Shown: positions 19,206 through 42,344 of the stretch, piece by piece
Layout: the number at the start of each line of letters is the position of its first letter
Position numbering within the stretch: position 1 is the first letter of the stretch
Source of the DNA: Opitutaceae bacterium
Lineage (GTDB): Bacteria; Verrucomicrobiota; Verrucomicrobiia; Opitutales; Opitutaceae
Reading direction: 5' to 3'
DNA length: 52,153 bases
NCBI GenBank assembly: GCA_014879845.1
Contig: JACSRI010000105.1
Span: 1 to 52,153, forward strand
Notes under the pieces: generated by a model
The model's database searches: none
What the model was told of the DNA's origin: nothing
The model's input: the letters and a program-made list of their open reading frames with translations, nothing else
Translations under genes and position numbers: made by a program

Positions 19206-19286
19206 GGGGTAGGACGAGGCCTCTGGCCGAGCCGCGGCTGCGGCGGGTGTACGGTCGCGGCTCGGCCAGAGGCCTCACCCTACCTG
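19206..19286. repeat. GGTAGGG-bounded palindrome with 21-bp perfect stem
   Basis: Arms at 19216-19236 (starts GAGGCCTCTGGCCGAG) and 19256-19276 are perfect complements; the loop is 19 bases. The outer ends carry GGGTAGG on the left and CCCTACC on the right, so the unit is symmetric. The prmC stop codon (TAG on the minus strand, 19280-19282) lies within the right GGTAGGG end. It sits between two convergent genes and could end transcription in both directions. Confidence 0.7.
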
Positions 19287-20154: not shown

Positions 20155-20285
20155 GGAGAGGATCACAGAGTGCACAGAGGTGGCACGGAGTTCACAGAGA
20201 AATCCAAAGAGATGTGCAATGAGCACCCAGTTCGAGCCGCGGCTCCATGATCTCCGTGTCTCCTCTGTGCCCTCTGTGGCCGGAT
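20155..20285. repeat. Cacagag-type inverted repeat between prfA and prmC
   Basis: Left part (20160-20206) has repeated CACAGAG/CACGGAG text; the right part (20250-20282) carries its reverse complement (CTCCGTG, CCTCTGTGCC, CTCTGTGGCC). The pair would form an imperfect stem of about 30 bp around a 45-base centre. The second copy in this window is at 28750-28927. Confidence 0.7.
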
Positions 20286-28749: not shown

Positions 28750-28927
28750 CGGATTTGAACCACAGAGGGCACAGAGAGCACGGAGAACGAGCCCGGACGA
28801 GCTGGCCATCCCGAGTCCGCGGGGCGCAGAAGGCACGAAGGGATCGGACTCAGAGTTCGGAGCCCTTGTGCCTCTTGTGGCCAACTCCGTCCTCTGTGCC
28901 CTCTGTGTTCTCCGCGGTTAACACCTA
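28750..28927. repeat. Large cacagag-type palindrome (second copy)
   Basis: The left end (about 28757-28790) reads ACCACAGAGGGCACAGAG and CACGGAGAACG; the right end (about 28885-28925) is its reverse complement (CTCCGTCCTCTGTG, CCCTCTGTGTTCTCCGCGGT). An inner pair (GCACGAAGGG and CCCTTGTGCC) gives a nested stem. It lies between convergent genes (helical-repeat protein and ffh) and matches the class at 20155-20285. Confidence 0.75.
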
Positions 28928-30344: not shown

Positions 30345-30536
30345 GGGTGAACCACGAATGGACACGAATGAACACCAATTTTCTCAATCCTCGGACGGGC
30401 GAGAGAACCACTGATGTTCGCTGATTGACGCTGATGGCGAACCGGCCGTTTGAGATCAGCGTGAATCAGCGCAGATCAGCGGTTTCTCCACGTTCCGGGT
30501 CCCTCTTCGTGAAAATTAGTGTGGATAAGTGGTTTC
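30345..30536. repeat. Nested ATCAGCG/ACCACGAATG palindrome upstream of ffh
   Basis: The outer pair, AACCACGAATGGACACGAAT (from 30350) and the complement-like stretch 30506-30535, encloses an inner pair: AACCACTGATGTTCGCTGAT (from 30406) against ATCAGCG, AATCAGCG, GATCAGCGG in 30455-30483. The arms are 25-35 bases. It fills the gap between the divergent ffh and Lrp genes, so both promoters would have to lie in or beside it. Confidence 0.75.
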
Positions 30537-31053: not shown

Positions 31054-31089
31054 GACTGCGGATTTCGGATTGCGGAGTGCGGATTGAGT
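31054..31089. repeat. GCGGATT-rich dispersed repeat copy
   Basis: A short tract between the Lrp gene and the aminotransferase, with repeated TGCGGATT, TCGGATTGCGG and GTGCGGATTG. It is AT-richer than the flanks and reads like known intergenic junk repeats in related genomes. It resembles the tract inside parB at 36969-37003. Confidence 0.45.
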
Positions 31090-36809: not shown

Positions 36810-36878
36810 GCGCACGTCCCTCCACGCGGCCGCCGTGCATCGCCGGTCGCGGTCCTTTCGTCTCCCGACATCCCCTTC

Positions 36879-37862
36879 ATGGCCACCCCGCACAAATCAC
36901 GCCTCGGCCGCGGCCTCGGCGCCATCATCTCCGGTGGCACCGCCAAGACCGCGACGAAGGCGCCCGCCGATCTCAAATCTGAAATCTCAGATTCCAAATC
37001 CAAGGCCCCGCCCGCCGCCCCGGTCGCGGCGCATGTCGCGTCGGCGCCGGCCCCGGCGCCCAGCGCTCCGGGTTACCAGGAGATTCCGGTCGGCTCGGTC
37101 GTGCCCAATCCCTACCAGCCGCGACGCGAGTTTCATCCCGACCACATCAAGGAACTTGCTGATAGCATCGCGGCCGAGGGTCTGCTCCAGCCGATCGTCG
37201 TGCGGCTCGTCGACGGGAAATACCAGCTCATCGCGGGCGAGCGCCGCTGGCGCGCCTTCCAGTCGCTCAAGCTCAAGAGCATCCCGGCGCGCATCGTGCA
37301 GGCCGGCAATTCCTCGGCGGCCACGATGGCGCTGATCGAGAACCTCCAGCGCGAGGGTCTCAACCCGATCGAGGAGGCGCACGGCTACGCCAGTCTCATC
37401 CGCGATTTCGATCTCACGCAGGAAGCCGTCTCCGAGCGCGTCGGCAAGGGGCGCGCCACCATCGCCAACTCGCTGCGCCTGCTAGTGCTCGAGGCCGAGG
37501 TGCAGGGGTTTCTCGGCAGCGGCATGCTTTCGACCGGCCACGCCAAGGTCCTGCTCGGACTGGACAATAAACAGGAACAACTGCTCATCGCCCGCCGCAT
37601 CATCGAGGACGGCCTGAGCGTGCGCGCCACCGAGGCGCTGGTGGAGGGCATCCGCAAGGGCGGCGGCAATCGCGCCGCCGGCGGCCGCCACGTCCCGCCG
37701 GCCGAGGCGACGGCCATCGCCGACATCGAGCGCCGGCTCACCTCCTTCCTCAACGCCCGCGTGCTGCTCAAGCACGCGCGCAAGAAGGGTCGCATCGTGA
37801 TCGAGTATCAGGGCAACGAGGACCTGCAGCGCATCCTCGAGAAGGTCGGCGTCGGCAGCTGA
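36879..37862 (+). CDS. parB: Chromosome partitioning protein ParB
   Basis: A 327-residue CTPase that binds parS sites. It starts HKSRLGRGLGAIISGG, the ParA-interacting motif, then a variable linker (about 21-66). The CTP-binding body follows: VPNPYQPRREF, GERRWRAFQSL (120-130) and ENLQREGLNPIEEAHGY (154-170). HTH: QEAVSERVGKGRATIANSL, and LSTGHAKVLLGL. C-terminal dimerisation region to the end. No parA is present here, although parA usually precedes parB. Residues 31-43 of the linker are encoded by a repeat-like tract (see findings). No parS 16-mer was noticed. Leader without Shine-Dalgarno sequence. Confidence 0.96.
   Translation: MATPHKSRLGRGLGAIISGGTAKTATKAPADLKSEISDSKSKAPPAAPVAAHVASAPAPAPSAPGYQEIPVGSVVPNPYQPRREFHPDHIKELADSIAAEGLLQPIVVRLVDGKYQLIAGERRWRAFQSLKLKSIPARIVQAGNSSAATMALIENLQREGLNPIEEAHGYASLIRDFDLTQEAVSERVGKGRATIANSLRLLVLEAEVQGFLGSGMLSTGHAKVLLGLDNKQEQLLIARRIIEDGLSVRATEALVEGIRKGGGNRAAGGRHVPPAEATAIADIERRLTSFLNARVLLKHARKKGRIVIEYQGNEDLQRILEKVGVGS
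36969..37003 (+). repeat. Dispersed-repeat-like tract in parB linker
   Basis: In-frame tract of repeated ATCTcAAATCT, GAAATCTCAG and ATTCCAAATCC units, coding for LKSEISDSKSKAP. It is much AT-richer than the surrounding parB sequence and partly self-complementary (TCTGAAATCTCAGA). It falls in the flexible linker, so it would be tolerated. Confidence 0.5.
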
Positions 37863-38694: not shown

Positions 38695-40500
38695 CTACCG
38701 TGCGTCCGCCGCCGTCTTGGTCCGCATCTCGCTGAACACCCGCACGGCTGCCTCCTTCTGCCCGAGGATGCCCTGGGCCCGGCGCAGGGCGTTGCGTGTG
38801 GAGAGCGTCGGGTTCTGCTCGGATTCAGGGAAGAAATTCTCGTGGCCGATCGTCGCGAGCAGGCCGGTGCGCTGGCAGATCTTCACCACGTCCTTGCGCG
38901 CGCCTGACACGACCAGGCCGCGTCCGCTCTCGCGCATGAACTGCACGAGCTCCTCGAGCGCGAGGATGGCGGAGGCGTCGAGATGGTGCGCGTGCTTCAG
39001 GCGCAGGATGATGATGCGCAGGTTCGGATCCTCGCACGCGCGGCGGATCTGCTCGTGCAGCAACTCAGCCGCGCCGAAGAAGAGGCTGCCCTCGACGTGC
39101 ACGATCGAGATCTCGGGCAGCGGGCGCTCGTCGCCGGAGGGCACGGCGGCGAGCTGGCCGGCTTCGTTGAAGGCGTATTCGACGAGCTCGGGCGCGCCGG
39201 CCTTGCGCAGGAAGAAGACGATCGAGGCCGCGGTGCCGATGAAGATCGCGGAGTCCAGCGGCAGGAGTAGCGCCGAGCCAGCCGTGAGGGCGAAGACCGC
39301 GGCGTCGGCTGGCGTGGATCGCACGACGAAGCGGATCTGCCGGAGATTGATGAGCGAGAGCGAGATCGAGACGACCACCACGGCGAGCGTCGCCTTGGGG
39401 ATGAACTGAATGAACGCGCCGAGCCCGAGGATCATCACGACCGTCATTGCACCACACAGCATGCTTGCGGCCGGCGTGGCGGCTCCGCTCGTGATGTTGA
39501 GGACGGAGCGTGTCGGCGAACCCGAGGCCGGCATGCCACCGAGGAAGGCGTTGCCCAGGTTGGCCATGCCCATGGCGAACACCTCTTGGTTGGTGTTGAG
39601 CCGCTCACCCGCCTGGGCGGCGAGCGACTTCGAAATGGAGGAACTTTCCAGGATGCCGAGAAACGCGATCGCGAGCGCCGTGCCGGCGAGTTGGTTGATC
39701 GCACCGGAGTCGAGCAGGGGCAGGGCCGGCGTCCACGAGGCGAGATGCACGGCCGGCAGGCAGGGCACCGGGTGGCCGATCTGCGTCGCGCTCCAGCCCA
39801 GGAGCGCTCCGAGACCGAGGGCGATGGCGACGTGCGGCGCCTTCGGAGCGAAGCGCCGGAGCACCACGATCACGACCGCGGTGATCGCGGCGATGAGTGT
39901 CGTGGCGGCGTGGAGACCGGGTGCGCGTGCGATCGTGTCGCGGATCGATCCGATGAGGGTCACCGCCTCGCTCGCCGGCACACCGAGGATGTGCTGGGCC
40001 TGGTTGGCGATGATCAGCACGGCGGCCACCGTGATGTAGGCGACGATCACGCTGCGCGACACATAGGCGATGAGGCTCGCGATGTTGAGGTAGGCGGCGG
40101 CGATCTGCAGCAGCGCGACCATGAGCAGCACCAGCGCGATCAGCGTCGGCGCCGCCGCGCTCGCGCCTGCGGCCGCGAGGGCGCTGAGCAGGAGCACGGC
40201 CGTGGCGTTGGTCGGCCCGAACACGGCGAAGCGCGAACTCGCGAAGAGCGGGCCGAGCAGGCAGGCGAGGGCCATGCCGACGAGCCCGTAGGTGATGGGC
40301 AGACCGGCGATGGCCGCGTAGGCGATGCCCTGGGGAAAGGCGACGAGCGCGACGGTGAGCCCGGCGCGCGCGTCGGGGCGGAGTTTCTCCCGCGAGTAGC
40401 CGGCCAGGGTCAGCCGCCAGGGCGCGAGGTCGATCGCGGTGAAGAGGCGACGCATGCGTGCCTGCACCGAGAGTGCGCGGGTTTCTTCGATCGCGCTCAT
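38695..40500 (-). CDS. SulP/SLC26 anion transporter (second gene of pair)
   Basis: A 601-residue transporter for sulfate, bicarbonate or other anions. The membrane domain spans about 20-430 and carries the SulP signature (FPQGIAYAAIAGLPITYGLV, then FAVFGPTNATAVLLLSALAA). The STAS domain is at about 455-560 (ISIVHVEGSLFFGAAELLHE, ILRLKHAHHLDASAILALEE) with the conserved DAS phospho-Ser region. A C-terminal extension follows (NPTLSTRNALRRAQGILGQK). Its ATG (40498-40500) overlaps the TGA of the upstream SulP gene as ATGA, so translation is coupled. Its TAG stop lies in a GGTAGGG sequence. Substrate cannot be assigned. Confidence 0.92.
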   Translation of the reverse strand: MSAIEETRALSVQARMRRLFTAIDLAPWRLTLAGYSREKLRPDARAGLTVALVAFPQGIAYAAIAGLPITYGLVGMALACLLGPLFASSRFAVFGPTNATAVLLLSALAAAGASAAAPTLIALVLLMVALLQIAAAYLNIASLIAYVSRSVIVAYITVAAVLIIANQAQHILGVPASEAVTLIGSIRDTIARAPGLHAATTLIAAITAVVIVVLRRFAPKAPHVAIALGLGALLGWSATQIGHPVPCLPAVHLASWTPALPLLDSGAINQLAGTALAIAFLGILESSSISKSLAAQAGERLNTNQEVFAMGMANLGNAFLGGMPASGSPTRSVLNITSGAATPAASMLCGAMTVVMILGLGAFIQFIPKATLAVVVVSISLSLINLRQIRFVVRSTPADAAVFALTAGSALLLPLDSAIFIGTAASIVFFLRKAGAPELVEYAFNEAGQLAAVPSGDERPLPEISIVHVEGSLFFGAAELLHEQIRRACEDPNLRIIILRLKHAHHLDASAILALEELVQFMRESGRGLVVSGARKDVVKICQRTGLLATIGHENFFPESEQNPTLSTRNALRRAQGILGQKEAAVRVFSEMRTKTAADAR

Positions 40501-42344
40501 GCGGGCGGGCCTCCGGCCGCGGCGGGTGACTCGTCGGCGCCGGCGGGCTTTTTTGTCGGGTCGACGTAGATACGGATGTTGGCCTGCCGCGTTCCGAGGA
40601 GCTTCTGCGCACGCCGCAGGGCGTTGCGCGTGGCGATCGTCGGGTTCGACGGCGAGTTCATGAAGAAGTTCTCCCGGCCGAGCAGTGCGAGCAGGCCGGA
40701 GCGGCGGAATACGCGGTAGATCCCGCGGTGCGCGCCCGACACGATCACATGGCGCCCGCGCTGACGCGCGAAACGCAGGAACTCCTCGATCGCGAGCGCG
40801 CAGGTGGCGTCGAGATGGTGGGCGTTGCGCACGCGCAGCACGATGACCTTGAGGTTCGGGTCGTCGCAGACGCGGCGCATTTGCTCGAGGAAGATCTCGG
40901 CCGCGCCGAAGAACAGGTCACCCTCGACGTGCACGATCGAGATGTCCGGGATCGGGCGCTCGGCCTTCTGGTCGACTGCGGCGAGCTGACCCTGCTCGGT
41001 GAACCCGTACTCCTCCAGTTGCGGCACGCCGACCTTGCGCAGGAAAAAGACGATCGACGTGCCGGCGCCGATGTAGAGGGCGACATCGAGTCGGAAGAGC
41101 AGCCCGGCGCCCCAGGTGACGAGCAGCACGGTCGCGTCGGCGGCCGAGGCGCGCAGGATCACGTGCAGGTAGTGCCGGCTCACGATCTCCGTCGCGAGCA
41201 CCATCGCGAGCGCGGCGAGCGAGGCCACCGGCACAAAAGCGAGCACCGGGATGCCGACCACGAACAGCCCCCCGCAGCACGCGGCCGCGAAGATGCCGGC
41301 AAACGGCGTGGCCGCGCGGAAACGCCGGCTCAGGCGCGAGCGCGAGAGCGAGACCGACGCCGGCATGCCGGAGAACACGGCGTTGCCGAGGTTGGTCGCG
41401 CCGAGGGCCCACATCTGCTGGCTCGCGTCGAAGCGGTCGCCCGCGCGCGCCGCGAACGAGCGGCCCACGACGGATGTCTCGACTAGCGTGAGCAGCGCGA
41501 GCGCGAGCGCGGAATTGACCAGCACACCGCTGCGGCCGAAATCGAGATCAGCCGGCGCCGTCGGTGAGAAGGCGAGATGCAGCCGCGACACCGCATCCGT
41601 CGCGTATCCACCACGCGCCAACAACCAGGCGGTGAGCGCGCCCAGCCCGAGGCTCACGATCGCGGCGGGTGCGCCCGGCATGCGCAGCGCGAGCGCGAGA
41701 TAGCCGCCCGCCGTGACGCACGCGATGAGCAGCGTCTCCCAGCGCACCTGGGGCAGTGCGTCGATCACGCCGGCGATGTTTTCCAGGAAGACGCTCGTCT
41801 CGGGCAGGTCGAGCCCGAGCACATGCTTGAGCTGGGTCGCCGCGACCACGCACCCGGCCGCCGCGACGAAACCCGTGGTGACGCTGCGCGAGACGAACCG
41901 CGTGAGAGGCGCGAGTCGCAGCCACGCTCCCCCGATCAAAATCACGGCTGTGACCGCGAGGAGCAGGGAGAGCATTTCGGGGCGCTGGGCCCGGGGCACT
42001 CCCAGGTGGCTGAAGGTGCTGAGCAGCAGGATGGCCGTGGTCAGCGATGGGCCGAGACTGGCGTGCCGGCTGTCGGAGAAGACGGCGCCGAGCGCCATGC
42101 CGGTGATGGCCGCATAGACGCCGTGCTCGGGCGGCAGCCCGGCCACGAGCGCGAAGACGAGCGCCTCGGGGAGGGCGAGCAGCGCGACCCGGAATCCCGC
42201 ACCGGCGTCGCGTCGCGCCAGCGTATGGTCGTAGTCGCGGAGATGGCGCAGGACGGGCACGAACTGGAATGGCTTCTGCGCCCAGGGCGCCGCGAGCGCC
42301 GTCAGCCGCCTTTGGAATGTGCGCAGTATCGCCCTCACGCGCAC
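40497..42344 (-). CDS. SulP/SLC26 anion transporter (first gene of pair)
   Basis: A 615-residue paralogue of the next gene. The membrane domain (about 50-440) has LALPEALVFALVAGLPPEHGVYAA, of which the first 20 residues are the signature, and SRHASLGPSLTTAILLLSTF. The STAS domain (about 465-575) has IVHVEGDLFFGAAEIFLEQM and LRVRNAHHLDATCALAIEEF; the DAT replaces DAS. The C-terminal extension (NPTIATRNALRRAQKLLGTR) is clearly related to the other SulP. The start is uncertain: GTG 42344 (or GTG 42338) precedes the RAILRTFQRRL text, and a further 62 open codons upstream are low-complexity and reach the secG promoter. No Shine-Dalgarno sequence is visible. It is divergent from secG. Confidence 0.88.
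   Translation of the reverse strand: MRVRAILRTFQRRLTALAAPWAQKPFQFVPVLRHLRDYDHTLARRDAGAGFRVALLALPEALVFALVAGLPPEHGVYAAITGMALGAVFSDSRHASLGPSLTTAILLLSTFSHLGVPRAQRPEMLSLLLAVTAVILIGGAWLRLAPLTRFVSRSVTTGFVAAAGCVVAATQLKHVLGLDLPETSVFLENIAGVIDALPQVRWETLLIACVTAGGYLALALRMPGAPAAIVSLGLGALTAWLLARGGYATDAVSRLHLAFSPTAPADLDFGRSGVLVNSALALALLTLVETSVVGRSFAARAGDRFDASQQMWALGATNLGNAVFSGMPASVSLSRSRLSRRFRAATPFAGIFAAACCGGLFVVGIPVLAFVPVASLAALAMVLATEIVSRHYLHVILRASAADATVLLVTWGAGLLFRLDVALYIGAGTSIVFFLRKVGVPQLEEYGFTEQGQLAAVDQKAERPIPDISIVHVEGDLFFGAAEIFLEQMRRVCDDPNLKVIVLRVRNAHHLDATCALAIEEFLRFARQRGRHVIVSGAHRGIYRVFRRSGLLALLGRENFFMNSPSNPTIATRNALRRAQKLLGTRQANIRIYVDPTKKPAGADESPAAAGGPPA

Follow-up and report, generated by a model that had tools for sequence, protein, structure and literature searches.

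The window analysed here is a stretch of 52,153 nucleotides of DNA from an Opitutaceae bacterium. It carries an open and complete parB gene encoding 327 amino acids, with the Pfam domains ParB_N (residues 67–157), HTH_ParB (159–258), and ParB_C (280–323). Between the N-terminal LGRGL motif and ParB_N lies a linker (residues about 19–66) that is predicted to be mostly disordered; AlphaFold2, run with 28 sequences, gave pLDDT below 50 at residues 19–29, 31–38, 42–45, and 49–61 and no secondary structure there. The tract that concerns us lies within this linker. The features are as follows.

36879–37862, + strand: parB, the host gene (Pfam domains, PDB homologues)
36933–37076, + strand: linker from the LGRGL motif to ParB_N (AlphaFold2, relatives)
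36970–37003, + strand: heptad array of five imperfect 7-bp units within the codons for DLKSEISDSKSK (sequence, Tandem Repeats Finder, genome-wide matches)
37077–37349, + strand: ParB_N domain, the downstream border of the linker (Pfam)
31057–31086, − strand: second heptad array, (ATCCGCA)n, of another family (Tandem Repeats Finder, period 7, unit TGCGGAT)

The heptad tract in ParB

The five units read ATCTCAA, ATCTGAA, ATCTCAG, ATTCCAA, and ATCCAAG, and Tandem Repeats Finder reports a period of 7 with 4.4 copies over 36970–37000. The original prediction had placed a repeat-like, in-frame tract at 36969–37003 within ParB and had called it AT-rich and partly self-complementary; the tract is present, parB is intact, and both descriptions hold. 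GC content is 36% and GC3 is 4/11 in the eleven central codons of the tract, versus a GC3 of 0.90 in the window genes (nine ORFs of the window taken as genes, which also supplied the codon-usage reference). As RNA, the tract is more stable than all but one of 200 shuffles (z −2.80), and so it can be described as partly self-complementary. When the 13 residues were back-translated with the codon usage of the window, none of 20,000 sequences reached the observed 7-bp self-match or fit to the heptad ATYTSAR, which indicates that the pattern is a property of the DNA rather than of the peptide.

We also considered and rejected an RNA regulator or terminator at this position: the window has no match to Rfam 15 at the gathering score, and hairpin strength is inconsistent among the arrays described below. 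Two terminator-like sites lie nearby (36839–36853 and 37242–37226), neither of which overlaps the tract.

A dispersed family in the genome of the window

The genome of the window (G000) comprises 5.44 Mb in 277 contigs; the genomes used for comparison come from other genera. The original prediction had proposed a genome-wide search for the tract, and this search gave a clear answer: AATCTSARATYTSARAT with at most one mismatch has 14+18 matches in G000, versus 0+0 for the reversed-pattern control, and on these counts we rejected a chance tract. A looser heptad pattern has 29+38 matches (control 1+2). Together these define a self-complementary (ATYTSAR)n family with ten arrays in G000, five of them in spacers and five in frame in conserved genes. 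Arrays of this family in G000 and in a second genome, G029 (see below), span 23–49 bp. The ten arrays of G000 lie at the following positions, given as contig and start or as contig and range.

C75:31059–31098 (L140:2060–2099): spacer between ribosomal S3- and L16-type (rpsC/rplP-type) genes
C83:1683: spacer between E1-alpha- and E1-beta-type dehydrogenase genes
C106:60323: spacer between two glutamate synthase-type genes (subunits)
C169:14788–14822 (L146:1989–2023): spacer between two nitrogenase-type genes, occupying nearly all of it
C137:14591: spacer after a HEAT-repeat gene
C177:36965: the copy in ParB
C124:11262, C154:31202, C195:181, and C272:28484: the other arrays in frame in genes

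In four of the five spacers the neighbours are partners of operon type, and these four arrays are thus likely to be inside operons. The spacer assignments rest on the flanking genes, as identified by Pfam, and on our reading of start and stop codons; on C83 and C137 the array, which directly precedes the presumed start, also falls in an open frame, and the gene may begin farther upstream there.

The tract had also been likened to one at 31054–31089 in the window. This likeness extends to the period and stops at the unit: the array there, at 31057–31086, follows the stop (31050) of an AsnC/Lrp-type regulator gene and is built of ATCCGCA, a different heptad family, and we therefore do not count it as a member of the ATYTSAR family. 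Two Verrucomicrobiaceae also carry (ATCCGCA)n arrays, some 2 kb before parB (L125:567–594 and 902–936; L127:565–592 and 893–934), which indicates that the ATCCGCA family is wider than Opitutaceae. Further short tandem tracts in the window, at 20164–20199, 28761–28786, and 30348–30379, are made of the 9-mers CACAGAGTG and CACAGAGAG and the 10-mer TGAACACGAA, and these may be additional dispersed repeat families.

In-frame copies in conserved genes

According to Pfam and NCBIfam, the five in-frame arrays of G000 lie in ParB, PurL (FGAM synthase), UvrA, dihydrolipoyl dehydrogenase (Lpd), and a NirA family protein. The peptides that they encode outside ParB are PESQISDLKSQIP in PurL, SHISDSKSEIP in UvrA, SQISDLKSQMP in Lpd, and SISNLKSEISN in NirA. 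Because 7 and 3 have no common factor, three units make one cycle of 21 bp and seven residues, and all five in-gene peptides are turns of a single cycle, I-S-[DN]-[LS]-K-S-[EQK]. Alignments with PDB homologues place the PurL, UvrA, Lpd, and NirA peptides at gaps or next to them. For these four proteins, "loop" is used here in the sense of alignment gaps and length variation; a model of the PurL fragment has a mean pLDDT of 38, too low to be of use.

The same loops in relatives

The closest ParB relatives in named genomes belong to Opitutaceae and other Opitutales. The linkers of 62 relatives are mostly Ala/Pro- or Lys-rich and vary in length and sequence, and the 13-residue peptide of the window is found in none of them. 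The original prediction had pointed to this comparison, and it had named a linker conserved in all relatives, with no related repeats elsewhere, as the outcome that would speak against an inserted repeat; instead, there is no conserved linker peptide, and related repeats are found elsewhere in the genome. Its suggestion that a repeat was inserted as a linker is borne out as far as a dispersed repeat in frame in ParB is concerned, but the array did not create the linker, since relatives have a varied linker there anyway.

Loops were located by pattern in 62/63 ParB (L081 was missed), 25/25 PurL, 22/30 UvrA, 25/29 Lpd, and 14/14 NirA sequences. Among the ParB linkers, two show strong 7-bp periodicity of the ATCCGCA/ATCCAAA type, namely L092 (VNPQSKIQNPKS; self-match 19/21) and L107 (AVRNPQS; 17/21), and L080 is a weak case. 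With a threshold of 14/21, four of the 62 linkers match themselves at lag 7, three at lag 5, and 20 at lag 6. At 16/21, only L092 and L107 remain at lag 7 and none at lags 4, 5, 8, 10, 11, or 13; the linker of the window, at 15/21, falls below this cut. The period-7 excess for ParB linkers alone is thus modest.

PurL provides the clear case of 7-bp periodicity at a shared site. Of its loops of at least 45 bp (11 shorter ones were dropped), 9/14 are 7-bp periodic, including that of the window's genome, versus 0/50 flanks; other lags gave 0–1 and the harmonic at 14 gave 9. Periodic loops are fewer in the other genes, at 3/22 in UvrA (a scored set without the loop of the window's own genome, L247), 3/14 in NirA, and 1/25 in Lpd, and no flank is 7-periodic over the five genes (0/296).

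The heptads in these loops differ between genera: CTCTCAR and AGCCCAG in G003, AGCNNTC in G020, GGGTTC- and CAAAAC-types in G024, and CTCCTGA in G002. We searched with two of them. Allowing one mismatch, (CTCTCAR)3 matches G003 at 62+65 places, including that genome's own PurL loop (C1:4822577) and UvrA loop (C1:3466631), and has no match in G000, G002, G020, or G024; its reversed control gave 34+30 matches in G003 and is not independent, as the reversed pattern resembles the pattern itself. (AGCNNTC)3 has 40+16 matches in G020, with the PurL loop of that genome (C1:5712296) among them and no matches for the controls; elsewhere it has 6+8 in G000, 3+0 in G003, and none in G002 or G024. In both cases tested, then, the loop heptad is the genome's own dispersed family. 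G003 and G020 are single-contig genomes that show the same behaviour as G000, and on this basis we set aside an assembly artefact.

Period, spread, and age

The second genus with ATYTSAR arrays that we followed is g30, where 373,504 bp of the roughly 3.1 Mb of G029 were analysed. This 373 kb holds 11 ATYTSAR arrays, five in called genes and six outside, by a home-made hexamer caller that is crude. Four of the array-bearing genes were tried against NCBIfam; three had matches, one of them above the cut-off. Self-match clusters in the same sequence numbered 33 at period 7 and 17 at period 14, with 1–4 at periods 4, 5, 8, 10, 11, and 13 and 34–40 at multiples of 3, as expected of coding DNA. Period 7, with its harmonic 14, is therefore the sole enriched period not divisible by 3 in the 373 kb of G029. 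The 33 period-7 arrays belong to many families, and by the same caller 10 lie in called genes and 23 outside. ParB loci gave a similar picture, with 10 clusters at period 7, eight at 14, and 0–5 at other non-multiples of 3 in Opitutales, and nine, seven, and 0–3, respectively, in other Verrucomicrobiota. The window itself has one cluster at period 7.

In addition to the heptads, G029 carries a repeat at L311:18421–18466 that contains ACGGATT-type sub-repeats and has tens of matches in its congeners G068 and G091, some of them as close inverted pairs as in REP/REPIN; L311:9356–9404 has many matches of 30–49 nt in the same two genomes.

Across the family, (ATYTSAR)3 occurs in 58/150 genomes (reversed control 7/150), and a slightly longer pattern occurs in 35/240 genomes of the phylum (reversed control 5/240). 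Even congeners differ in this respect: of the g8 genomes, four have none and two have 79+81 and 41+41 matches. G029, G068, and G091, of genus g30, share an array located in an rsmB-type gene; over the first four units of this array, positions 3 or 7 account for 4/4 differences between G029 and G068 and for 3/4 between G029 and G091. G029 and G068 also have a second in-gene array that G091 lacks; the pairwise alignment with G091 shows an 18-nt gap at that place, but the flanks are only 67% alike. Because they are kept across species, the g30 arrays are old and vertically inherited, persisting through speciation. The loops vary among the relatives compared, and none of these gave a clean empty site or a target duplication.

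Unit structure and explanations of the tract

In the family as a whole, the unit is fixed at A1, T2, T4, and A6, with a two-way choice at positions 3 (C/T), 5 (C/G), and 7 (A/G). This was measured in the contiguous G029 sequence with a pattern that fixes only AT.T.A. in three successive units and that has no matches in the reversed sequence. The 36 units counted there have C 15/T 21 at position 3, C 20/G 15/T 1 at position 5, and A 17/G 19 at position 7; the loci of G000 were left out because they had been preselected by a similar pattern, and the picture is the same when they are added. All eight unit types occur. We saw no sign of pairing between units, and within units the Y3/R7 combination is C with A in 13/62. 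A unit followed by its in-phase reverse complement was found in 0/42 neighbouring pairs, with 5.0 expected; these are weak signs that the arrays avoid perfect palindromes. When the ten G000 arrays were folded as RNA and compared with shuffles, five had z of −2.36 or lower and five lay between −0.05 and −1.31. Hairpins are possible but not general among these arrays.

Taken with the matches in spacers and genes, this structure suggests that the ParB tract is probably one copy of the dispersed, degenerate (ATYTSAR)n family, inserted in frame into a disordered linker, and we favour a tolerated insertion, either selfish or neutral. Insertion would be the event that brought the array into the linker, and the heptad family of each genome would disperse by some copying process. 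Within genes, presumably only arrays that keep the frame and have no stop in the frame used would survive, and they would persist where the added residues are harmless; in ParB, the outcome may merely be a longer linker. Weighing against this reading are the age of the g30 arrays, the modest period-7 excess in ParB linkers, neighbouring units that are identical somewhat more often than chance, and the matches of some genomes to the reversed control. A broader proposal, which we put forward tentatively and regard as doubtful, is that the fixed 7-bp period is the signature of the machinery. The framework would then differ per genome (ATYTSAR, CTCTCAR, AGCNNTC, and others), the process would operate in Opitutaceae and patchily in other Verrucomicrobiota, and core enzymes such as PurL would be recurrent sites for each lineage's own heptad.

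Could the heptads instead be functional sites? Each heptad family would then be bound by a protein or RNA that contacts the framework positions, and selection would keep the arrays wherever they are placed. A fixed framework with two-base choices does resemble a recognition motif, and it persists in three species of g30, where the rsmB-type differences fall mostly at the variable positions 3 or 7. The four spacer arrays between operon-type partners and the missing in-phase reverse complements also fit such a role, and TAACTGA heptamers have been proposed as translational control sites (PMC4679880; for this and all papers cited below, our statements refer to the portions of text available). However, core genes with no relation to one another hold half of the copies, presence is patchy in both the family and the phylum, unrelated heptads occupy the same loop in related genomes, and RNA hairpins are clear in only five of ten arrays. 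We consider functional sites unlikely.

Under local slippage, a 7-bp motif that happened to be present in the linker would have expanded there into a microsatellite. The units are in tandem, 7-bp repeats are over-represented among simple repeats in many bacteria (PMC4692102), and some prokaryotic phyla show an enrichment of units of six to nine bp (PMC12699852). Neighbouring units are identical in 10/42 pairs versus 5.5 expected by composition, and since this is somewhat above chance, some slippage or conversion is likely. Yet the other 32/42 pairs are not identical, whereas a slippage microsatellite should have identical or nearly identical neighbours, one degenerate family is present at ten loci, and in the two relatives tested the loop family is the one dispersed in the genome, all of which makes growth in place very unlikely as the origin of the tract. 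An ordinary flexible linker, in which protein-level selection for K/S/E/D residues left a coincidental DNA pattern, fits the residues, which are typical of such linkers, and the predicted disorder of the region, but is scarcely credible given the failed back-translations, the low GC3, and the same DNA pattern in spacers.

Comparison with known repeats

Rickettsia and Wolbachia offer the best-known cases of repeats within the interior of essential proteins. Here the repeat is far smaller and differently built, and it lies in core enzymes of a different phylum. The original prediction had drawn the parallel to the RPEs of Rickettsia, which measure 105–146 bp, have terminal inverted repeats and long stem-loops (PMC2229807; see also PMC3733652), and are tolerated in conserved genes such as that for guanylate kinase (PMC2229807). 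The parallel is good in that a dispersed, self-complementary repeat occupies spacers and also sits in frame in conserved genes, here ParB and four others (PurL, UvrA, Lpd, and NirA). It fails on build: the arrays are 23–49 bp of degenerate 7-bp units and do not reach the length of an RPE, folding is not general (five of ten arrays fold clearly), no constant terminal repeat was seen by eye in the G000 arrays, and the phylum is another. As an array is tens of bp of heptads with no constant stem-loop bounded by terminal inverted repeats, it is not an RPE, a distinction drawn from the published length and folding of RPEs.

In kind, the ATYTSAR arrays belong with the little-studied heptameric repeats of bacteria, and they are RPE-like in effect. 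Like dispersed bacterial heptamers in general, they are short 7-bp arrays at many loci. The heptamers GGGAATC of Xanthomonas and GGGGA(C/T)T of Nostoc share the 7-bp unit, the small number of units (four preferred), partial heterogeneity, and dispersal (PMC4692102). Those units are G-rich and have been proposed to form G-quadruplexes (PMC4692102), whereas ATYTSAR units lack a G-run of three or more. In two Xanthomonas, 11% and 7% of the heptamers are intragenic (PMC4692102), versus 5/10 of the arrays here, and the available text of that paper has nothing on recurrent in-frame insertion of the Xanthomonas or Nostoc heptamers into core enzymes.

TAACTGA repeats of marine Beggiatoaceae, Cyanobacteria, and Bacteroidetes are likewise 7-bp direct repeats that are patchy across lineages, and they lie mainly in spacers and in some ORFs (PMC4679880). 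They are built of a single unit that, on one strand, carries stops in every reading frame, and their in-ORF copies are mostly at protein ends (PMC4679880), whereas here the coding strand is open and the copies lie in the interior of conserved proteins. Borg repeats also make mostly disordered stretches inside proteins from DNA repeats; 43–65% are in ORFs, where unit lengths are always multiples of three, and almost all of the repeats are unique (PMC9879509). By comparison, the unit here is 7 bp and degenerate, and one family recurs across the genome.

The available portion of a survey of short tandem repeats contains neither the word heptanucleotide nor the name Verrucomicrobia (PMC12699852). 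Among the best-matching open-licence literature, we found no report of heptad arrays of Verrucomicrobiota, which is weak evidence of their absence from print, and none of heptads that recur in frame in core enzymes. Different repeat families at the same loop amount to replicated natural experiments in which DNA repeats become protein sequence, and the over-representation of 7-bp repeats in many bacteria becomes testable in a defined set of genomes.

Other repeats in the window

Two larger repeats lie outside the tracts discussed above. The segments 38762–39130 and 40594–40962 are direct copies 1832 bp apart, 75–76% identical over 110 and 233 nt, and are perhaps paralogous genes. A strong inverted repeat at 19208–19284 has 29-nt arms that are 93% complementary and 19 nt apart.
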